Source: Lachnospiraceae bacterium | GTDB taxonomy: Bacteria > Bacillota > Clostridia > Lachnospirales > Lachnospiraceae | Reading direction: 5' to 3' | NCBI GenBank assembly: GCA_017619295.1 | Contig: JAFZSQ010000074.1 | Coordinates: 1-44,754, forward strand | DNA: 44,754 nucleotides | Position numbers and translations under genes: made by a program | Part shown: piece by piece, positions 35,860 through 44,754 of the stretch | Position numbering within the stretch: position 1 is the first letter of the stretch | Layout: the number at the start of each line of letters is the position of its first letter | The notes under the pieces: generated by a model | Database searches by the model: none | What the model saw: the letters and a program-made list of their open reading frames with translations, nothing else | Told to the model about the DNA's origin: nothing

Positions 35860-36020
35860 AATAAAGATATTATAAAAACCGAATGGTCGGCATCATCTGC
35901 CGACCATCTTTTTTTGCGCTGGTATGCAGTTTTAAGTTTCATGTCGCGTGTTCCGGTGTTGAAACCGTTTACGACTCGCCGTTTCTTGGCTTTAAGCTTT
36001 TTAAGGTTTTTCTCTACCAT
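35856..36020 (-). CDS. Small basic protein on the minus strand, unknown
   Basis: 54 codons beginning MVEKNLKKLKAKKRRVVNGF and rich in Lys/Arg. Support comes from upstream signals: a minus-strand promoter with perfect TTGACA at 36073-36068, and AAAGGAAGG 8 nt before the ATG at 36020. The ORF runs through the bidirectional terminator hairpin at 35883-35907 and overlaps the last bases of the HAD gene. The C-terminus may therefore be wrong, or a frameshift may have removed an earlier stop. It may be a nucleic-acid-binding or ribosome-associated peptide; the family is not recognised. Confidence 0.55.
   Translation of the reverse strand: MVEKNLKKLKAKKRRVVNGFNTGTRDMKLKTAYQRKKRWSADDADHSVFIISLF
35883..35914. 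terminator. Bidirectional terminator after the HAD gene
   Basis: The perfect 10-bp stem ATGGTCGGCA/TGCCGACCAT (35883-35892, 35898-35907) with a TCATC loop is followed by CTTTTTTT on the plus strand. On the minus strand it is followed by TCGGTTTTTA, so it may serve both directions. Confidence 0.92.
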
Positions 36021-36044
36021 AGCTTGTACCTTCCTTTCATAGTA

Positions 36045-36073
36045 ATAATCGTCATTTTAAGTGGATATGTCAA
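36045..36073 (-). promoter_or_regulatory. Promoter of the small minus-strand gene
   Basis: On the minus strand, perfect -35 TTGACA (36073-36068), 17-nt spacer, -10 GATTAT (36050-36045). The start point falls just before the AAAGGAAGG ribosome binding site, giving a very short leader. Confidence 0.68.
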
Positions 36074-36099
36074 GGGTTTATCTTATAGAAAAACAACTA

Positions 36100-36128
36100 T
36101 ATACAACGAAGATATAATCTGCTATACT
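36100..36128 (+). promoter_or_regulatory. Promoter of the RidA-like gene
   Basis: -35 TATACA (36100-36105), 17-nt spacer, extended -10 TGCTATACT (TATACT 36123-36128). The block CTATATACA-N8-ATAATCTGCTATACT that contains it recurs with the same spacing at 44651-44682. Confidence 0.65.
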
Positions 36129-36188
36129 GAGAATATATCGAACAAATGTACGATGCAAAGAATAGTATAACGAGAGGGAGAAAAGAAA

Positions 36189-36554
36189 ATGAGTGAAATC
36201 GAAAGATATGAAGTGAATGAACAGTGGGCACATACAGGCTTGGTTAAGGCAGGAGATTTCTGCTATTTAAGCTATTGCGTTGGCAATATTGGTCAGCCCA
36301 TAGAGAACCAGATTAACGGTGCCTTTGATAACATGGAAGAGAGGTTGGCAATGGTTGGCTTGACCCTTGAAAATGTTGTACAGATGGATTGTCTCTTCAG
36401 AGACGTATGGAACATTCCCGTTATGGAGAAGGTCATTAAGGAGAGATTCAAGGGCAAATATCCTGCTCGTAAATCCATCCAGACAGAGTTCGCTCATGTG
36501 GGCGGAGCAGATGGATTACAGTTCCAGGTTGACGCAGTAGCATACTGCAAATAA
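36189..36554 (+). CDS. RidA/YjgF/UK114 family protein
   Basis: 121 residues, a single YjgF-type domain: LVKAGDFCYLSYCVGN, then LTLENVVQMDCLFRDVWN and KYPARKSIQTEF (the conserved Arg region). RidA proteins hydrolyse reactive enamine/imine intermediates from PLP enzymes. The N-terminus is not the classical RidA one, so it may be another subgroup with a different substrate. GAGGGAG is the ribosome binding site. It has its own promoter; a PLP aminotransferase is encoded 1.2 kb downstream. Confidence 0.87.
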   Translation: MSEIERYEVNEQWAHTGLVKAGDFCYLSYCVGNIGQPIENQINGAFDNMEERLAMVGLTLENVVQMDCLFRDVWNIPVMEKVIKERFKGKYPARKSIQTEFAHVGGADGLQFQVDAVAYCK

Positions 36555-36556
36555 CG

Positions 36557-37096
36557 TCACTCCCCATCCACATGGAACTTGTTAAGCCCTTCGAGTTTCA
36601 TTTTCTTGCTGATAAAGGGCATGAGCCATCTTAGAAATTCAAAATTTGCAATCATTAACAATATTCCGGCGGCTATAAAGATTACGGTTATTAAATCGAA
36701 TGTCAGGATGAGTGCGCACTTGTATAGAATAAGCACGCTTATGGGCAGGAAGATTATACTTGTAATCACCGACGGAATATATTTTTTAATTTTTATGGTA
36801 AAAGCTATATGTACTACGAAATGGGCTGCCAGATCAAGAAAGAAACCGTACCACAATGCAAACAAAATGTTCCCGGGGAAGTAATACGCAAGAAGGCTGA
36901 TTCCGAAAAATGGAATAAACTCCTCATAAACTCCAATGGTCCAGGCCATATCATATAAATCACGATATGTATTCATCACCTTTGGGTATCTGTCAAACAA
37001 CCAGGGGTTCTTTCTGAAGAACCATCCAAATCCAACAATCTCCTCCATGTCATGAACAATAAAAATTATAGGTAAAAGTAAAAGATATTCTTTCAT
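36557..37096 (-). CDS. HXXEE domain membrane protein
   Basis: 179 residues with about five hydrophobic segments. The name-giving motif HDMEE starts at His15 within the first helix (LLLLPIIFIVHDMEEIVGFG); a second conserved-looking AAHFVVHIAF lies at about 90. Members are uncharacterised integral membrane proteins. AAGGAGG precedes the ATG. It is divergent from a TetR-type regulator, with a palindromic operator next to its ribosome binding site, so it is probably the regulated target. Confidence 0.85.
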   Translation of the reverse strand: MKEYLLLLPIIFIVHDMEEIVGFGWFFRKNPWLFDRYPKVMNTYRDLYDMAWTIGVYEEFIPFFGISLLAYYFPGNILFALWYGFFLDLAAHFVVHIAFTIKIKKYIPSVITSIIFLPISVLILYKCALILTFDLITVIFIAAGILLMIANFEFLRWLMPFISKKMKLEGLNKFHVDGE

Positions 37097-37110
37097 TATG
37101 TCCTCCTTAC

Positions 37111-37126
37111 TGACACATTTGTGTCA
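37111..37126. promoter_or_regulatory. Palindromic operator, probable TetR-type binding site
   Basis: TGACACA-TT-TGTGTCA is a perfect 7-2-7 palindrome 6 nt upstream of the HXXEE gene ribosome binding site. It falls just downstream of a possible minus-strand -10 (TATCAT, 37143-37138). The half-site GTGTCACTT recurs at 37201-37209, before the ribosome binding site of the divergent TetR gene. Confidence 0.72.
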
Positions 37127-37226
37127 CTTGTAAATTTATGATACAGTAATCCGTAAGAAAGTAAATACGAAAAGAAAAAGATACACAAATTTGAGAAAAA
37201 GTGTCACTTAAGGAGTCTACAGTGCT

Positions 37227-37769
37227 ATGATTGAATCTAAGAATCCTTCAGCAATAAGATCACAAAAGGAAATAACTGAAGCTCTTATTTCACTGATGCG
37301 GGAATATCCCTACAGTGAGATATCGGTTAAACAGATTATTTTGGAATCGAAGCTGGCAAGGAAGACATTTTACAGAAACTTTGAATCGAAGGATGATGTG
37401 CTGATTTCTTTAATCAGGGACAATCTACGTGAATATTTCCATGAAGTCGATAGTGGAAATGTTGATGTGCTTACGACGATTTTCTCATTTTCAGTTAGTA
37501 ACAAAGAAATGCTGATGCTTCTCGACAGAAATGGGATGCTCCATATTGTGCTTCAATGCATGAACGAGTATCTTTCGTTACACAAGCAGGGGAAAGCAGG
37601 TGAGGCCAACCCTTTTGTGCAGCTGTTTGAAGGCCTTGATTCAGAGTATCTGATAGCTCTTAATATAGGCGCCATATGGAATGTAATATCTTTATGGATC
37701 CACAGAGGAATGAAAGATTCCCCCGAACATGTGAAGGAAACAATCAGAGAATATCTGGAAAGACTGTAA
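37227..37769 (+). CDS. TetR/AcrR family transcriptional regulator
   Basis: 180 residues. The N-terminal HTH (about 10-56) reads IRSQKEITEALISLMREYPY, then SEISVKQIILESKLARKTFYRNFESKDD, the typical TetR start. The C-terminal ligand domain is of the TetR_C_7/DhaS-like kind, with IHIVLQCMNEYL-like helices. It probably represses the divergent HXXEE gene and itself through the palindrome at 37111. AAGGAGT lies 10 nt before the ATG. An aminotransferase gene begins 15 nt after its stop and may be co-transcribed. Confidence 0.88.
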   Translation: MIESKNPSAIRSQKEITEALISLMREYPYSEISVKQIILESKLARKTFYRNFESKDDVLISLIRDNLREYFHEVDSGNVDVLTTIFSFSVSNKEMLMLLDRNGMLHIVLQCMNEYLSLHKQGKAGEANPFVQLFEGLDSEYLIALNIGAIWNVISLWIHRGMKDSPEHVKETIREYLERL

Positions 37770-37784
37770 TAAAGGAGTAAAGCA

Positions 37785-38963
37785 ATGCCGGAACTAAGTA
37801 AACGTGTAGAGACATTCACAGATTCTGTAATCAGGAGAATGACTCGAATAAGTAATAAATATGGAGCAATAAACCTGTCCCAGGGTTTCCCGGATTTCGA
37901 TCCGCCGAAGGAGATAACGGATGCATTGGAAAGGGCTGCACATAAGGGACCTCACCAGTATTCCATAACCTTTGGTGCCAAGAATTTCAGAGATGCATTG
38001 GCTGCCAAAGTTTCCAAAACATTTAAGAGAGAAGTGGACCCCGAGACCGAGCTTTGCGTCACCTGCGGAAGCACAGAAGCCATGATGACGGCTATGATGA
38101 CTATCTGTAACCCGGGAGATAAAGTTATGGTGTTCTCTCCGTTCTATGAGAACTATGGAGCGGATGCGATTTTGTCGGGAGCAGATCCGATTTACATTCC
38201 TCTGGTTCCACCTGAATATAACTTCGATATTAAACTTATAGAAGAGGGCTTCAAAAAAGGAGCTAAAGCAATAATAATCTGTAACCCATCCAATCCCTGC
38301 GGCAAGGTATTTACGAGAGATGAACTTGAGGCTATAGGTGAACTTGCCGTTAAGTACGACGCCTTTGTAGTTACGGATGAGGTGTATGAGCACATGGTTT
38401 ATGCACCCAATGTCCACACAGCTTTTGCCTCCCTTCCCGGGATGTTTGACCACACTATCACATGTAATTCTTTGTCAAAAACTTATTCGATCACAGGATG
38501 GCGCTTAGGGTATATATGCGGGCCTGCCAAAGTAATTGAGGCAGCAAGAAAGGTACATGACTTCCTGACTGTTGGGGCAGCAGCACCTCTTCAGGAGGCA
38601 GCAGTGGCAGGACTTACCCTTCCGGAATCCTACTACGAAGATTTACTCAGAATCTACACCGAAAAGAGAGATTTCTTCCTGGCAGGTTTGGATAAAATCG
38701 GGCTTAAGCACAACATACCTCAGGGCACATATTTCGTAATGATTGATATTGCGGAGTTCCTGGAGCTTCCACAGTTTAAGGGCTATTCAGACCTTGAATT
38801 TTGTGAGTGGATGATACAGAATATAGGAGTGGCTGCCGTTCCCGGGTCCAGCTTCTTCCGTGAACCGGTGAACAATCTGATTCGTCTTCATTTCGCAAGA
38901 CAGCAGTCCACACTTGAAGAGGCTTTACTTCGCCTTGAGAAAATGGTAGACTTAATGCCTTAA
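37785..38963 (+). CDS. Class I/II pyridoxal phosphate aminotransferase
   Basis: 392 residues, fold type I. N-terminal INLSQGFPDFDPP; CNPSNPCGKVFT; PLP aspartate in VVTDEVYEHMVY; the PLP lysine in NSLSKTYSITGWRLGY; C-terminal substrate arginine in LIRLHFAR. This pattern is common to aspartate, kynurenine and methionine-type aminotransferases (the YbdL/KAT-like group has the same GFPDFDPP start), so the amino acid used is uncertain. It follows the TetR gene closely. Confidence 0.9.
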   Translation: MPELSKRVETFTDSVIRRMTRISNKYGAINLSQGFPDFDPPKEITDALERAAHKGPHQYSITFGAKNFRDALAAKVSKTFKREVDPETELCVTCGSTEAMMTAMMTICNPGDKVMVFSPFYENYGADAILSGADPIYIPLVPPEYNFDIKLIEEGFKKGAKAIIICNPSNPCGKVFTRDELEAIGELAVKYDAFVVTDEVYEHMVYAPNVHTAFASLPGMFDHTITCNSLSKTYSITGWRLGYICGPAKVIEAARKVHDFLTVGAAAPLQEAAVAGLTLPESYYEDLLRIYTEKRDFFLAGLDKIGLKHNIPQGTYFVMIDIAEFLELPQFKGYSDLEFCEWMIQNIGVAAVPGSSFFREPVNNLIRLHFARQQSTLEEALLRLEKMVDLMP

Positions 38964-38989
38964 GTCAATACCAATCAGGAGAAATCGTA

Positions 38990-40348
38990 ATGGGAATAGT
39001 TGAGTTATTGCTTCTTGCAATAGGTCTTTCCATGGATGCCTTTGCCGTATCAATCTGCAAGGGAATTGAAACAAAGAAAGCGACCATCAAACAAATATTG
39101 CTGTGCGGCATATGGTTTGGATGTTTCCAGGGATTGATGCCCTTTATAGGATATGTTCTTGGAAGCAGGCTGGAGTTCATAATTAACAAGGTGGCTCCCT
39201 GGCTGGCCTTTATACTGCTTCTTATCATTGGAGTAAACATGATTAGAGAAGCCTTTTCTTCAGAGGAAGAGGAGACCAGAGCAGGATTCGATGTTAAGTC
39301 CATGTTTATACTGGCCGTTGCCACATCCATAGATGCCCTCGCAGTCGGTATCACATTTGTGGCGGTCCCCGTTACTTTGATTAGTGCATCACCTTTTATT
39401 AACACCGTTATTGCCTGCCTTATTATCGCAGCAACAACCTTTATTATTTCTTCTGTGGGAGTCCGAATAGGAAACGTATTCGGAACCAGATATAAGTCCG
39501 GTGCGGAAGCAGCCGGCGGATTTGTCCTTGTTTTCATCGGATTAAAGATTCTTCTGGAGCACATGGGTGTTCTGGAGTTTATGGAAAACGGAGACGTGAT
39601 TTTCGAATTGCTGATTCCGTTTGTTGGAACCGTCCTTGGCTCTGCCCTTGTGTTCATTTTGGACAAGGAATTAAAGGACGATATAAAGAACATTATGACG
39701 GGAATGGCCGGAGGAATCATGATGGCATGTTCCATGTGGACCCTGCTTTATCCCTCGATACTTAAAGGGAAAGTTATTATCGCCGCCGTCGGATTCATTA
39801 TCGGTATAGCATTCCAGTATCTGCTTGATAAGGTTGTTCCCCATGCCCATGCATTTACCAAAGCGGAAGAGGGCCCCTCAAGCAGCCTTAAATATACATT
39901 TAAAGTAATGATGTCAGAGGTGATTCATCACGTTCCCGAGGGCATGGCCATTGGCATTATGCTGGCCGGTGCACTTAACGGGGCAGATGAAATTTCCTTG
40001 ACTGCCGCCATTGCCCTTATCATCGGAATTGCCATTCAGAACATTCCCGAAGGAGCCCTTGTATCAACCCCCATAAGAGTAGAAGGTGAGGAGAAAAGCA
40101 AAGCCTTTCTCATGGGTGTTATATCGGGAATTGTGGAGCCGCTTCTTGGTATTGTAATGATAATCCTTGTAAGCGCCTTCCCCGGAATTCTTTTGTTTGT
40201 AATGGCCCTTACGGGAGGAGCAATAGCATTCCTTGTTATAGAGGAACATATTCCCGCAATGCACACGGGAAGACATTCGGACAAAGGAACTCTTTCTTTT
40301 GCATTGTTCTTCTGCCTTATGATGATTCTTACATTCCTATCAAGATAA
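38990..40348 (+). CDS. Fusion of MntP manganese exporter and ZIP metal transporter
   Basis: 452 residues in one uninterrupted frame. Residues 1 to about 195 are a complete MntP (manganese efflux) module with two DAxAV motifs (LSMDAFAVSICKG and ATSIDALAVGITF) and six membrane segments. From about 205 on follows a ZIP-family module: MTGMAGGIMMACSMWTLL, metal motif HHVPEGMAIG (His313, His314, Glu317), IQNIPEGALVSTPIR (Asn351-Glu354) and EEHIP. MntP exports Mn2+; ZIP proteins usually carry Zn2+, Fe2+ or Mn2+ into the cytoplasm. Both halves look intact. A ribosome binding site (AGGAGAAA) precedes ATG 38990. Confidence 0.92.
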   Translation: MGIVELLLLAIGLSMDAFAVSICKGIETKKATIKQILLCGIWFGCFQGLMPFIGYVLGSRLEFIINKVAPWLAFILLLIIGVNMIREAFSSEEEETRAGFDVKSMFILAVATSIDALAVGITFVAVPVTLISASPFINTVIACLIIAATTFIISSVGVRIGNVFGTRYKSGAEAAGGFVLVFIGLKILLEHMGVLEFMENGDVIFELLIPFVGTVLGSALVFILDKELKDDIKNIMTGMAGGIMMACSMWTLLYPSILKGKVIIAAVGFIIGIAFQYLLDKVVPHAHAFTKAEEGPSSSLKYTFKVMMSEVIHHVPEGMAIGIMLAGALNGADEISLTAAIALIIGIAIQNIPEGALVSTPIRVEGEEKSKAFLMGVISGIVEPLLGIVMIILVSAFPGILLFVMALTGGAIAFLVIEEHIPAMHTGRHSDKGTLSFALFFCLMMILTFLSR

Positions 40349-40351
40349 ATA

Positions 40352-40382
40352 AAGAACCGCGGGTTAAACGCCCGCGGTTCTT
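40352..40382. terminator. Bidirectional terminator between convergent genes
   Basis: The 12-bp perfect stem AAGAACCGCGGG/CCCGCGGTTCTT (40352-40363, 40371-40382) has a 7-nt loop. The tails are short in both directions (CTATATTG; TATTTATC), but the stem is very stable and lies 3 nt after the transporter stop. Confidence 0.85.
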
Positions 40383-40392
40383 CTATATTGGA

Positions 40393-41550
40393 TTAGTACC
40401 CTTCAGGGAAAATCTCGATGGAGTCAAGTCTCTCTCCGCCAAGATCCCACTCAACGTCAACCTCCAGGTTTCCGTAGTCAAATACAAATCTCATTTGTCT
40501 TATATCATCTTTGCTGCCGTAATCATCCACCAGATCCATTCTTTCGGAATCAGGCTTTGCAGGTAATCCGTACATATCCTTAAGGACTTTATAAATCTTA
40601 GCCTTATCCTTCTCGGCCTTATCCATGGCTTCCTTGTCTGTGTAACTCTTAAGTGTAGCCCAATGCTCTCTGCCGCGGATTGCCGAAGCTATAAAGTGTA
40701 AATCATGCATTCCAAGGCAAACTATATAGTCGGTGCCGTTGGCGGTATTTACGCCATCCTTTTCCCAAATGATGGAGTACATGTCGTGGTCCTTGAATTC
40801 GGGGTCGGAATTTGAAGGCATAAAGGCTTCAACATGGGGCACCCACTCGCTGCCGGGTTCCCATCCCAAAAATTTGGTAAGGTGAGGAGTAGCAACCTTT
40901 ATGATATCCTCTTCGGTAGCACTGTCCACATCTACGTAGGGACTGGGCACTTCTTCGTAATCCTCATCGACCCATTCATCGTCCTCTTCTGTCCAGATTT
41001 CATCCGCATTATTTTCAATCAGGTATTCTTTCTTGGCATTGTAGTCGATGAACTGAAGCATCTGCTCTTCGGTCATTTCAGCCTCGGGAAGGTGGAGAAG
41101 CTGGTCCTCCTCAATGAAGCAAAGACTCTTTCCGTCCCAATCGCTTAACTTCTCAAGTCTTTGGACCTCGCCTTCAGGGAAAAGAGCTGAATCATAGTAT
41201 TTCCTCTCAAGGTCGGCAATTTTGAGAGTCTCCACGTTTGTAAGCGGTCTGCTCCAGGCTCCGTCCATAGTAACTGACTCATCACTCTTTATTTCTTCAA
41301 AAAGCTCCGTCTTCTCAGTTTCGGGCATGGACTTCATACGATTAACCCAGGAGTCATAGCCTGCCTTAACACCAAAGCCTGTAAGGCCCACAGCGGCCAT
41401 AACTATAAGGGCCGTTAAAGGTCCCGCATAGCGGAAGCGGAGATCCGCTGCTCTTTTTCCACGTTTACAATCTTTGTATAATTCTCTCTTTATGTAATTG
41501 GGGATCTCGATGTTTTCAAAGAGATCCTTATCGATGTCATATCTGCTCAC
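40393..41550 (-). CDS. Membrane-anchored probable anti-sigma or sigma-linked protein
   Basis: 385 residues from a GTG at 41550 (MSRYDIDKDLFENIEIP), chosen because AAGGAGGT lies 7 nt upstream, inside the end of the sigma gene (14-nt overlap). A cytoplasmic N-terminal part of about 50 residues with a basic helix is followed by one transmembrane segment (YAGPLTALIVMAAVGLTGFG) and a large acidic extracellular domain (EEDDEWVDEDYEEV; GTDYIVCLGMHDLHFIA). Position and topology fit an anti-sigma factor, but there is no zinc-finger or RsgI motif, so the role is inferred from context. Confidence 0.78.
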   Translation of the reverse strand: MSRYDIDKDLFENIEIPNYIKRELYKDCKRGKRAADLRFRYAGPLTALIVMAAVGLTGFGVKAGYDSWVNRMKSMPETEKTELFEEIKSDESVTMDGAWSRPLTNVETLKIADLERKYYDSALFPEGEVQRLEKLSDWDGKSLCFIEEDQLLHLPEAEMTEEQMLQFIDYNAKKEYLIENNADEIWTEEDDEWVDEDYEEVPSPYVDVDSATEEDIIKVATPHLTKFLGWEPGSEWVPHVEAFMPSNSDPEFKDHDMYSIIWEKDGVNTANGTDYIVCLGMHDLHFIASAIRGREHWATLKSYTDKEAMDKAEKDKAKIYKVLKDMYGLPAKPDSERMDLVDDYGSKDDIRQMRFVFDYGNLEVDVEWDLGGERLDSIEIFPEGY

Positions 41551-42055
41551 AGATGATACCTCCTTCGTAAGCCCTGCCAAGTTTGGAAAGAGTTTCCCTT
41601 GCTCTTTGCAGGCGCTTCTTGACGGCAACCTCTGATATGTGAAGGATTTTGGCAGTCTCTTTGACTGAATAACCCTCTACATAATATAAGATCACCACGC
41701 TCTTAAGTTTATAATTCAGGTTCCATATCAGTCTGAGCTTATCTTTGTCTTCTACACTCATTCCCCTGGTGATTTCAAGGCTTTCTTCCACCTCATCAAG
41801 AGGGATTCCGGCATGCTTCTTATGAAATCTGAGGAATTCTTTACATTTATTCTGTGAAACTTTTATAAGCCAAGCTTTCTTGTGCTCTTCGGAAGCAAAA
41901 TCAGGTCTCTTGGTCAGGTAAGTGATGAATGTCTCCTGTAAAACATCCTTGGTGTCCTGTTCGTTCTTCAGGATAACGAAGCATATTTTGTAGAGAATGT
42001 TGCTGTATTTTTCTATGACCAGTTCCAGATCTGCGTTCCTATCTGCTCGATTCAT
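41537..42055 (-). CDS. ECF-type RNA polymerase sigma factor (leftward)
   Basis: 172 residues from ATG 42055 (MNRADRNADLELV), which has GGGAGGAAA upstream. Region 2: YKICFVILKNEQDTKDVLQE; region 4: LRLIWNLNYKLKSVVILYYVEGYSVKETAKIL with an HTH ending VAVKKRLQRARETL. It lacks region 1 and 3 as in ECF factors. The downstream membrane protein overlaps by 14 nt and likely controls its activity. It lies back to back with a second ECF module at 42256. Confidence 0.92.
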   Translation of the reverse strand: MNRADRNADLELVIEKYSNILYKICFVILKNEQDTKDVLQETFITYLTKRPDFASEEHKKAWLIKVSQNKCKEFLRFHKKHAGIPLDEVEESLEITRGMSVEDKDKLRLIWNLNYKLKSVVILYYVEGYSVKETAKILHISEVAVKKRLQRARETLSKLGRAYEGGIICEQI

Positions 42056-42136
42056 TTTATTTCCTCCCGGATTATTGAATACGATAGGTCTTCGCGAATA
42101 CCTTTTCACTCTATAAATGTTTGATAAAAGCAAAAG

Positions 42137-42165
42137 GTGACATCCTGAAAAGTATATCATATAAT
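42137..42165 (+). promoter_or_regulatory. Sigma-A promoter of the rightward ECF operon
   Basis: -35 GTGACA (42137-42142, one mismatch to TTGACA), 17-nt spacer, perfect -10 TATAAT (42160-42165). It is followed by an A/T-only tract to 42188. Confidence 0.72.
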
Positions 42166-42191
42166 TTTTTTAAAAAAATTTTTAAAAAGTT

Positions 42192-42219
42192 TGTAACGAA
42201 TTTCGGATTGCTCCGTCTA
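42192..42219 (+). promoter_or_regulatory. ECF-type autoregulatory promoter
   Basis: -35 TGTAAC (42192-42197), exactly 16 nt, -10 CGTCTA (42214-42219). The AAC-N16-CGTC arrangement is the classical ECF sigma signature. The start point near 42226 is about 30 nt before the sigma gene, consistent with self-activation. Confidence 0.68.
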
Positions 42220-42255
42220 ACCCATGAGATCAAAAAAAGGAAAGCTCGAAAAGAC

Positions 42256-42744
42256 ATGGACAATACCACAGCAGAAAAACTTTATGAAGCGTTCTATATG
42301 AAACTGTTTTCATATGTTATGACGCTAACGGACAACCAAAATGACGCCATGGAAATAGCCCAGGAAACTTTTTTCAGGGCCATATCCACCAAGCAGACCT
42401 TCAGAGGTGAAAGCGAAAGCTTCACATGGCTATGCGCCATAGCGAAGAACCTTTTCATCGATGAGAAAAGAAGGCACGCAAGGTTCGAGGACGTCCCTCT
42501 TGAAGCTCAGCCCGACACGGGAAAGAGCATCGAGAAGAAGCTTATGGACGCCGACACTTCCATACAGATTCACCGAATCTTACACGCCATGGAAGAACCC
42601 TACAAGGAAGTTTTCCAGTTAAGAGTTTTCGGCGAGCTGTCATTTAAGGAAATCGGTTCGGTCTTTGGTAAAACAGAAACCTGGGCCCGGGTTACTTACC
42701 ATCGAGCAAGAATTATGATCAAAGAAAGGATGGAGAATTCATGA
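42256..42744 (+). CDS. ECF-type RNA polymerase sigma factor (rightward)
   Basis: 162 residues from ATG 42256 (MDNTTAEKLYEAFYMK); longer in-frame starts lie across the promoter region and are unlikely. Region 2 LFSYVMTLTDNQNDAMEIAQ with ETFFRAI; region 2.4 FTWLCAIAKNLFIDEKRRHAR; region 4 EVFQLRVFGELSFKEIGSVFG with WARVTYHRARIMIKERM. The last codons overlap the anti-sigma gene (ATGA). The ECF-type promoter upstream suggests that it drives its own operon, controlled by the zinc-finger membrane protein downstream. Confidence 0.92.
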   Translation: MDNTTAEKLYEAFYMKLFSYVMTLTDNQNDAMEIAQETFFRAISTKQTFRGESESFTWLCAIAKNLFIDEKRRHARFEDVPLEAQPDTGKSIEKKLMDADTSIQIHRILHAMEEPYKEVFQLRVFGELSFKEIGSVFGKTETWARVTYHRARIMIKERMENS

Positions 42745-43703
42745 AATACGAATGTGATATGATAGAAGACCTTCTGCCTTTATATAAAGACGGCGTTTGC
42801 AGTGAAGCAAGCAAAAAGGCAGTTGAAGAGCATCTTAAAGAATGCCCCAAGTGCAAAAAGATGCTGGAAGAGTTAAACGATACGTCAATCGACGAAATGA
42901 TTGTTAAGGAAAAAGATAGCGTTATCGATTCCCAGTCCAGATTTTTCAAGAGAAAAAGTGCTACGGTGGGTGGCGTCTTTGCGGCAATTTTTGCCATTCC
43001 GATTCTGGTATGCCTCATTGTAAACCTTGCAACCGGCCACGCCCTTACCTGGTTCTTTATAGTACTTGCAGCAATGCTTATTCCCACATCGTTGATTGTT
43101 GTGCCTTTAATGGTCAGAGAAAACAGGATGTTCTACACCATGACATCCTTCACCGCAAGTCTCCTTTTGCTTCTTGGAGTTGTAAGCATATACACAAAAG
43201 CCGGTTGGTTCGCTGTAGCAGCCTCTGCAGTATTGTTTGGCCTCACCGTTTTATTTGGCCCCTTCATTGCCTGCAGAAGACCTGTGAATGCCCTTCTTAA
43301 AAACTTCAAGGGCCTTGCAGTAATGGCAGCCTGCACAGTTACATTTTTCCTCATGATTACCTGCATCGGCTTTACGGTAAAATCAGCCGGTTTCTTCCCT
43401 AAGGCACTTTGCATTTCAGTTCCCCTCATTATGTTGGCCTGGGCAATCTTTGCAGTAATCAGATACATCGGTTCAAACAAACTTGTCAAAATCGGTGTAT
43501 GCACAGCCTTAATCAGTGCATTTTCATACTGGGGTGTTGAACTTATTGTAGAGTTGCTTATAAGAACAGATAATATTGGAACAGTCATGTATTCAACCTG
43601 GCCCATGAGTGGTGCCGTTGTGGGTATTGTAATTGGTGCCGTACTCACAATTATCGGAATGATTGCAGGAAGTAAAGGAGATAAGAAAAATGAAAATAAT
43701 TAA
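42741..43703 (+). CDS. Membrane anti-sigma factor with zinc finger (zf-HC2)
   Basis: 320 residues. N-terminal zinc-binding anti-sigma domain: CDMIEDLLPLYKDGVCSEAS and HLKECPKCKKML (HxxxCxxC) binds the sigma factor. After a cytoplasmic linker come about eight transmembrane segments (about 75-310), so it has a large membrane domain that could sense lipid or cell-envelope state. ATGA overlap with the sigma gene is typical of sigma/anti-sigma pairs. The DUF4097 lipoprotein overlaps its end by 14 nt. Confidence 0.92.
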   Translation: MKYECDMIEDLLPLYKDGVCSEASKKAVEEHLKECPKCKKMLEELNDTSIDEMIVKEKDSVIDSQSRFFKRKSATVGGVFAAIFAIPILVCLIVNLATGHALTWFFIVLAAMLIPTSLIVVPLMVRENRMFYTMTSFTASLLLLLGVVSIYTKAGWFAVAASAVLFGLTVLFGPFIACRRPVNALLKNFKGLAVMAACTVTFFLMITCIGFTVKSAGFFPKALCISVPLIMLAWAIFAVIRYIGSNKLVKIGVCTALISAFSYWGVELIVELLIRTDNIGTVMYSTWPMSGAVVGIVIGAVLTIIGMIAGSKGDKKNENN

Positions 43704-44625
43704 AGGATTGTTTCTGGCCGGTGCCGTGGCAGCAGCAACGCTCTTTGCCGGATGCTCATTTGGATCTAAAACATATGCTCACTATGCAAACGCCGACAAA
43801 TATGTTGCCGGTAATCAGGAAATAACTGAGAAGATTGACAGAATCGATATTGATTACATATCAGGAGATATTAAGCTTTTAACAGAAGATACAGATAAAG
43901 TCACAATCACAGAGACAGCTAAAATCGAACTTGATGCCGACAGACAGGTGCACACCTGGGTAGAGGGCTCCACCCTTCACGTAAGATACTGTGCGGCTGA
44001 CAAGAGACTCGATCTCAATAATCTGGACAAGAGGCTTGAGATTATAATCCCCGGGGATGTGGTTTATTCGGACGTAAACATTAACCTCACATCCGGAGAT
44101 TTGGAAACCGGAAATATCAAAGCGGAGAGCATCAACCTTGATTCAACATCAGGAGACCGTGTTGTAAACTGTGAGGCAGAAACAATTACCATAAACGCCA
44201 CATCCGGAAATCTTGATCTTACCCAGTCAGGCAAAAGCGACGACATCTCAATTGACGCAACCTCCGGAAGTCTTAACATCAAGTTGGATGAAGCAAAGAA
44301 CCTGGTTGTCAACGCCACATCCGGAACTTTAAAAGTTGAGGCAGAGTCCGTGGAGAATATTGATACGGATTCATCCAGCGGAAGTAAAACATTCATCCTG
44401 GCTAATGTACCTGAATCAACAACTGTGAATGCAACCTCAGGAGATGTAACCTTCAGTCTTCCTTCAGATGCCGGTTTCAGTGCTGTTATAAACACCACCA
44501 GCGGTGACGTCAGAAGTAACATTCCCTTCACTTCAAACGGCGAAACCTACACCTTCGGAAACGGCACAGGCAGTATGGACATTGATACCACCTCCGGAGA
44601 CGTTATCTTCGATGCCTTGGATTAA
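43690..44625 (+). CDS. DUF4097 beta-repeat lipoprotein
   Basis: 311 residues from ATG 43690, which has AAAGGAGAT 6-8 nt upstream. A lipobox (LFAGC) follows the signal peptide. The rest is a right-handed beta-helix-like array of repeats of about 20 residues, each marked TSGD, TSGN, TSGS or TSGT (roughly ten units: NLTSGDLET, DSTSGDRVV, NATSGNLDL and so on). DUF4097 proteins often sit in ECF sigma/anti-sigma operons with unknown function, as here. A terminator follows 45 nt after the stop. Confidence 0.92.
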   Translation: MKIIKGLFLAGAVAAATLFAGCSFGSKTYAHYANADKYVAGNQEITEKIDRIDIDYISGDIKLLTEDTDKVTITETAKIELDADRQVHTWVEGSTLHVRYCAADKRLDLNNLDKRLEIIIPGDVVYSDVNINLTSGDLETGNIKAESINLDSTSGDRVVNCEAETITINATSGNLDLTQSGKSDDISIDATSGSLNIKLDEAKNLVVNATSGTLKVEAESVENIDTDSSSGSKTFILANVPESTTVNATSGDVTFSLPSDAGFSAVINTTSGDVRSNIPFTSNGETYTFGNGTGSMDIDTTSGDVIFDALD

Positions 44626-44650
44626 GCAATAGAACAAAAGTTCGAAAAAA

Positions 44651-44682
44651 CTATATACATTACACCAATAATCTGCTATACT
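44651..44682 (+). promoter_or_regulatory. Second copy of the RidA-type promoter block
   Basis: CTATATACA (44651-44659), 8 nt, ATAATCTGCTATACT (44668-44682): the same spacing and sequence as at 36097-36128. It gives -35 TATACA, 17 nt, extended -10 TGCTATACT. It lies at the 5' side of the terminator, so a transcript from here would start within that hairpin. It may drive a gene beyond the window. Confidence 0.5.
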
Positions 44683-44705
44683 TTTTAGAGTATGGCAGAT
44701 TTTTT
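44670..44705 (+). terminator. Terminator after the DUF4097 gene
   Basis: AATCTGCTATACT (44670-44682) pairs with AGTATGGCAGATT (44689-44701) over 13 bp with one T-G pair and a 6-nt loop, followed by TTTTT. Confidence 0.88.
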
Positions 44706-44706
44706 G

Positions 44707-44754
44707 GTGCAGTTGGGGCCGATGTGCAATTTGGGGACAGACCCCTTTTTGCAC
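44707..44754. repeat. REP-like palindrome, copy 2 (cut by window end)
   Basis: GTGCAGTTGGGG (44707-44718) is identical to the start of the repeat at 29297. A second unit follows: GTGCAA...GGGG-ACAGA-CCCC...TTGCAC (44724-44754), a hairpin with an internal T-T mismatch zone. The window ends exactly at the end of this unit, so the element may continue. Confidence 0.68.

Follow-up and report, generated by a model that had tools for sequence, protein, structure and literature searches.

The window analysed here is positions 1-44,754 of contig JAFZSQ010000074.1 of a Lachnospiraceae bacterium (GenBank assembly GCA_017619295.1). At 38990-40348 of its forward strand lies a gene that joins an MntP manganese exporter to a ZIP metal transporter in one chain. 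Translation and the list of open reading frames (ORFs) give a single frame of 452 codons with one terminal stop. The protein carries the motifs DAFAV (residues 16-20), DALAV (115-119), HHVPEG (313-318) and NIPEG (351-355). The longest stop-free run in shuffled DNA is 212 codons (36001-44754, about 8.75 kb, both strands, base-shuffled 200 times), so the frame is far above chance. GC content at third codon positions (GC3) is alike in the two halves of the gene, 0.449 and 0.467. The features of the locus are listed below, with equivalent residues numbered as in BbZIP of the ZIP/SLC39 family.

38977..38981, +, AGGAG, ribosome-binding-like, 8 bases ahead of the fusion ATG (direct reading of the sequence)
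38990..40348, +, MntP-ZIP fusion gene, 452 amino acids (aa), one of 54 distinct fusions
38990..39562, +, MntP half, residues 1-191, six predicted membrane passes (Pfam Mntp match; helix elements H3-27 to H166-191)
39035..39049, +, first DAxAV motif, D16 in 54/54 fusions (translation and alignment)
39332..39346, +, second DAxAV motif, D115 in 54/54 fusions (translation and alignment)
39563..39592, +, linker, residues 192-201, about 10 residues, predicted extracellular (between model helices H166-191 and H202-222)
39593..40345, +, ZIP half, residues 202-452, eight predicted helices
39827..39850, +, D280, H285 and H287, equivalent to BbZIP D144, H149 and H151 of the M3 exit site (alignment; 45/45 fused halves compared)
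39917..39940, +, ZIP transmembrane helix 4 (TM4) site E310..H313-H314..E317; E310 at BbZIP I174, H313 and E317 in M1, H314 at N178 of M2
40037..40051, +, ZIP TM5 site QNIPE, residues 350-354, at BbZIP Q207, D208 and E211 (BbZIP alignment)
40136..40138, +, E383, equivalent to BbZIP E240 of M2; Glu in 28/54 fusions
40241..40246, +, E418-E419; E419 equivalent to BbZIP E276, metal release (BbZIP alignment)
40354..40380, +, GC-rich, terminator-like hairpin past the fusion stop codon (direct reading of the sequence)

The fusion recurs in relatives. With the window included, full-length copies are present in 10 of 299 genomes in a scan of the family (47-100% identity to the window copy) and in 4 of 391 in a scan of the class, where the other three belong to one genus of a second family, f45. 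A scan of the phylum found the window only (1/249). Within f45, 35 of 115 genomes carry the fusion, a count that leaves out two fragments at contig ends (G743, G765) and includes G705, which matches only residues 1-425 of the 457 in the query. An independent scan of GTDB r220 turned up 16 loci, of which 15 are full-length fusions. Removal of identical copies left 54 distinct fusions from 65 fusion ORFs; among the first 25 aligned, the 24 others are 46-93% identical to that of the window. The 54 span two families, Lachnospiraceae and f45, the latter probably the family of Saccharofermentans. Among the sources are four records with strain names that carry no metagenome-bin label (Lachnospiraceae bacteria G11 and AC2028; Butyrivibrio sp. 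NC3005 and MC2013). A sequence-only reading that preceded this work had described the 452-codon frame with both DAxAV motifs, HHVPEG and NIPEG, and the same motifs and single stop are confirmed here. It had looked to homologues with the MntP-then-ZIP order as a mark of a genuine fusion, and the 54 distinct fusions are of this kind. It had also allowed that the fused frame might be an assembly error, an explanation that fails because the fusion recurs in independent scans. The chance that an assembly or frame error joined two genes is practically nil: nothing was found in favour of it, and with 54 distinct fusions, including the four strain-named records, we count it as already refuted. Recurrence in relatives and the shuffle control rule out an artefact or chance ORF. 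The fusion is real, old and selected. No description of it was found among the titles, abstracts and passages that searches of open-licence PubMed Central papers covered. One candidate for a second MntP fusion, G491/G532 (open frame 447), is actually MntP that ends at a stop, after which an unrelated ORF shares its frame. ZIP matches at G978:C19:638-1390 and G1004:C1:270145-270951 lie in open frames of 695 and 544 aa and are possible other ZIP fusions.

The two halves differ in how readily profiles recognize them. Pfam Mntp scores 142.5 bits on the window protein, above its gathering score of 24.4, and six membrane passes are predicted within residues 1-191, as the MntP family expects. Among the helix elements of the structure model, H33-89 is probably two passes, and H102-112/H114-125 form one. 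Residues D16, E87, D115 and E173 occur in 54/54 fusions, and in MntP the two Asp are required for function. Six predicted passes and both DAxAV motifs are thus shared with the MntP exporter (PF02659, TC 2.A.107; E. coli MntP/YebN), whereas the fusion chain continues into ZIP and MntP proteins are about 200 aa long (PMC4608589, from an excerpt). No solved relative of the MntP half appears among the structure matches listed, which proves nothing. The ZIP half aligns with BbZIP over residues 201-447 (expect value (E) 7e-21) and is predicted to adopt the eight-helix BbZIP fold. Against the ZupT equivalog NF003243 it reaches 83.7 bits (E 1.3e-23), under the 252-bit cut-off; L002, one of two separate ZIPs of the window genome, is likewise under it at 119.8 bits. 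Pfam Zip, with a cut-off of 35.1, gives the window fusion 18.9, below threshold; among other fusions L050 just passes with 35.5, and L038 and L052 are not listed. Both separate ZIPs of the window genome pass (L002 77.2, L003 80.3). Annotation by this cut-off would label three of the four scanned fusions as MntP only. The whole 452-aa chain comprises 14 helix elements, and the product is predicted to be a membrane protein of six plus eight passes with both the N and C ends outside. The model is weaker at residues 61-100 and 161-200 (predicted local distance difference test (pLDDT) of 62-78 by block), and the mutual placing of the halves is left aside. The linker coincides with a low-confidence stretch at about 191-200, and the mean K+R of residues 189-202 is 0.28, in line with its predicted extracellular place.

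Relative to ZIP/SLC39 proteins such as BbZIP and ZupT, the fused ZIP half has its M1 site intact and its M2 site and internal gate altered. The M1 counterparts H313, E317, Q350 and E354 (BbZIP H177, E181, Q207 and E211) are present in 54/54 fusions; E181 and Q207 we take to be M1 residues of BbZIP. That H177 and E211 belong to M1, and that M2 consists of N178, D208 and E240, is stated in PMC11549095. Counterparts of the M3 and release residues, D280, H285, H287 and E419 (BbZIP D144, H149, H151 and E276), occur in 45/45 fused halves compared. At M2, H314 and N351 replace N178 and D208 in 54/54 fusions, and position 383 holds Glu in 28 (the window among them), I in 19, V in 3, T in 3 and Q in 1, so that the TM6 Glu is lost in 26/54. 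The TM4 motif HNxPEG thereby becomes HHxPEG in 53 fusions and HHxSEG in one, His standing for Asn. Position 310, equivalent to I174, is Glu in 52/54, with Ala in L052 and Gln in L091. Separate ZIPs carry V310 and N314 in 43/44; the remaining one (L124) is the tail of a fusion truncated at the edge of its contig. H314 and E310 thus occur in none of the 43 complete separate ZIPs, a biased sample made up of nearest relatives. N351 is not special to fusions, because separate ZIPs also carry it (44/44). A scan of the 391 class genomes for IHHxPEG gave 19 sites, three of them in ZIP frames and all three fusions; the pattern demanded Ile before HH, would miss LHH or VHH, and missed G585 (HHxSEG), the fourth fusion of the sample. 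Finally, the stretch ahead of the first ZIP helix is replaced by MntP.

These positions have been studied in other ZIP proteins, as described in excerpts of two papers. I174 is an internal-gate residue of BbZIP (PMC13192868), and I174 together with V215 shuts M2 off from the cytoplasm (PMC11549095). Human ZIP4 has Asp at the E310-equivalent position, and D504A gives 2-3 fold higher activity (PMC13192868). BbZIP with M2 disrupted shows only modestly lower transport (PMC11549095). On these grounds the ZIP half probably still transports, its release or selectivity changed, though it may instead be a sensor.

In f45 and in the window genome no second MntP accompanies the fused copy. Pfam Mntp matches 97 of the 115 f45 genomes, with exactly one match in 96. 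The fusion is the sole MntP in 35/35 f45 fusion genomes and a separate ZIP is present in 28/35, so in f45 it replaces a separate MntP and not the ordinary ZIP. The window genome also has one MntP match, the fusion. Searches of that genome for other Mn transporters gave no NRAMP and no GDT1/MneA at E up to 0.001, a weak absence in a genome 95.8% complete. At L125 and L126 (G772, G766), a short ORF follows the fusion and a separate Asn-type ZIP gene lies about 0.5 kb downstream.

Some relatives carry a structured leader ahead of the fusion. Rfam scans at the gathering threshold gave no riboswitch. Below threshold, RF00080 (yybP-ykoY) matches precede L098, L107 and L095 (E 0.012, 0.016 and 0.047), and GGGGAGUAGC and GUCAACAUACU in relatives' leaders agree with the printed Rfam consensus in the matches shown. 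Across 11 aligned leaders GGGAGTAGC and TGCGAGACTC do not vary; 7 have the first G of GGGGAGTAGC and 10 have GTCAACATACT. With the conserved core and helices present, aptamer pairing holds in 98.1% of 209 cells, a value reached in 0/500 shuffles. Two-sided changes occur in four aptamer pairs; the outer helix accounts for two, which both come from L038. An alternative hairpin shares its 3' strand with the aptamer and is paired in all cells. Across the leader pairing values, 0-11 of 500 shuffles reach those observed; the structure was drawn from the same 11 leaders, nine of which are close relatives. By eye, nine of the 11 show a hairpin with a run of six T ahead of the start codon. Our own covariance model (R1), run on 87 sources, finds the element in 11/54 fusion sources, the model's own 11, and in 10/29 separate-MntP sources, ahead of the MntP start and on its strand; it was found at neither of the two separate ZIP loci that the window genome has. 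The leader of the 11 fusions is taken to be a Mn2+ riboswitch of the yybP-ykoY kind, a name resting on the R1 model and the core letters, and the Rfam RF00080 model may miss a variant of this Mn2+ leader. The ten separate-mntP leaders (L079, L070, L071, L015, L026, L077, L073, L075, L080, L014) are also Mn2+-riboswitch-like; RF02617 weakly overlaps three of them, L073, L077 and L080.

Both halves are under purifying selection, and neither is decaying, as judged from codon comparisons. The ratio of nonsynonymous to synonymous divergence (dN/dS) lies at 0.034-0.075 in MntP halves and at 0.030-0.101 in ZIP halves, alike in pairs with and without E383. Twelve close pairs were compared; one is saturated in dS, leaving 11, and five of these have dS >1.5 in both halves. 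For trees, which are unrooted, the 54 fusions were thinned to 45. In the MntP tree (74 rows) the 45 fused halves and three separate ones lie on one side of a branch (99/92); the separate f45 genes L122 and L123 stand near the base of the fused branch, as pre-fusion relatives would. ABC-transporter-like ORFs follow the unfused MntP of L122 (G720), and similar ORFs follow fusions L045, L047 and L048 (by eye), which suggests the same locus without and with the ZIP half. L049 is nested beside fusion L012 (100/86), and after the stop of its MntP gene come a terminator-like hairpin and unrelated ORFs, so L049 has lost its ZIP half. In the ZIP tree (88 rows) the 45 fused halves form one side of a branch (99/99). 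L052, a long branch on the edge of this clade, may have arisen by a fusion of its own. Compared with the MntP tree, the ZIP tree shows longer stem branches for the two fusion types. Fusions with and without E383 both occur in both families, so transfer between Lachnospiraceae and f45 is likely. In L050, L089 and L090 (fusions of G534, G732 and G735) the first 780 bases or so, covering MntP and the ZIP start, are 88-100% identical per 100-base window, the remainder is 68-97% identical and the flanks are largely unrelated. This pattern looks like recent single-gene transfer with mosaic recombination inside the ZIP half.

Family, single copy and leaders make it very probable that the MntP half serves the cell as its Mn2+ exporter. 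Our best reading overall, offered as possible rather than probable, is that this exporter is joined to a changed ZIP half, which takes up, or senses, a divalent metal. We infer that each half transports, which way it does so, and any link between the two activities. The proposed working is as follows. (i) The MntP half would act as the Mn2+ efflux pump of the cell. (ii) Through its intact M1 site the ZIP half would import a divalent metal (Zn2+, Fe2+ or even Mn2+). (iii) It would do so with an altered M2 site and Glu in the internal gate. (iv) The extracellular linker would join MntP to the first helix of the ZIP elevator, a helix that in BbZIP belongs to the moving domain (PMC9873690, in excerpt). 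(v) The halves, made 1:1, would trade Mn2+ out for another metal in and thereby set the metal ratio. A stricter form, which we think unlikely but worth stating, is a one-chain exchanger: Mn2+ efflux would be linked mechanically to the mobile domain of an importer-type elevator, export would be coupled to entry (or sensing) of a second metal, and the transport site and internal gate would have been re-made with the fusion.

Several results weigh against the tethered exporter and importer. A separate ZIP persists in most f45 fusion genomes. E383 is missing from 26/54 fusions and Asn at 314 from all 54, which could also mean that the ZIP half became a sensor. L049 keeps its MntP half alone, so this half does not need ZIP everywhere, a point against obligatory coupling. 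For the leader, the RF00080 gathering score of 45 is not reached (best 23.9 bits, E 0.012), and a search at E up to 1 does not report RF00080 for L038, L043 or any of the ten separate-mntP leaders, nor does one of the window genome at E up to 0.001. The window fusion has no such leader by Rfam within 37000-40500 (E up to 5) or by our own model in the window (E up to 10), and none was seen in 42 other fusions, some with little upstream DNA. Earlier questions bear on the same balance. The sequence-only reading had asked whether the ZIP metal ligands are conserved: M1 is kept in 54/54, but the M2 residues are not. The two-domain protein that it described gains support as real from the conserved order, from that M1 site and from purifying selection on both halves. 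Its suggestion that the ZIP half may have changed is right in that the M2 and internal-gate region is altered, only in fused copies among those compared; a change of direction, by contrast, is without support. Tight co-regulation, which it had also offered, fails on its own to explain the altered ZIP site.

Three other accounts deserve weight. The ZIP half could be a built-in metal sensor or brake, binding at M1/M2 and moving or locking the elevator domain so as to switch the attached MntP pump. This is a serious but doubtful alternative: M2 and internal-gate residues are altered in fused copies, another ZIP is present in 28 of the 35 f45 fusion genomes, and the ZIP tree has the longer fusion stems. 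Moreover, metal at M1 and M3 of BbZIP drives a conformational switch (PMC11549095), and the linker enters the helix described as part of the moving domain (PMC9873690). All M1 and M3 path residues are kept, however, and the dN/dS of the ZIP half is low. It is rather unlikely that the halves are two independent transporters sharing a chain for equal dosage only. Each half does keep its own sites, and one relative has lost the ZIP half. The leader common to some fusions and separate mntP genes would mean no more than that fusion placed ZIP under the control of mntP. Equal dosage leaves unexplained, however, the H314 and E310 that are absent from the 43 complete separate ZIPs. Most improbable of the three is a reversed ZIP half exporting a second metal alongside Mn2+. 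The gate and M2 changes, an acidic internal gate that could ease entry from the cytoplasm and a Mn-riboswitch-like leader in 11/54, which fits an efflux gene, would agree with reversal. Yet we know of no ZIP protein that exports across a bacterial membrane, and human ZIP4 is an importer. It too has an acidic residue at the gate position (PMC13192868), which counts against reversal.

Metal importers and exporters are usually separate genes under opposite regulation. If a tethered exporter and importer is correct, a conserved chain containing both, as the only MntP of the cell, would mean that in some bacteria metal ratios are set by fixed pairing or direct coupling and not by transcription alone. 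The fused copies are also a natural test of the ZIP M2 site and internal gate: both changed together, 26/54 lost the M2 Glu and one relative dropped the ZIP half.

Separate production of ZIP from an internal translation start was rejected as a general mechanism. A Shine-Dalgarno (SD)-like run, sought with a loose pattern, is found in 12/54 only, and many fusions have CTG, CTT, TTA or ATC in place of ATG at the codon before residue 199. The window fusion has GGAG 3 bases ahead of its internal ATG, and the rejection does not extend to this copy. An aminotransferase gene ends 26 bases ahead of the window fusion; against the other 24 fusion loci compared, this neighbour is common only to the window and G11. 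No neighbour is widely common across these 25 of the 54 loci, and sharing is confined to small groups (ORFs of at least 120 aa; flanks of differing extent). No plasmid location is indicated, since 0 of 245 matching records cover 80% of the query. Further along the window, 41537-43703 holds divergent extracytoplasmic function (ECF)-sigma-like genes at 41537-42160 (-) and 42121-42744 (+), which overlap by 40 bases at their listed starts; the latter is followed by a zf-HC2 anti-sigma-like gene.
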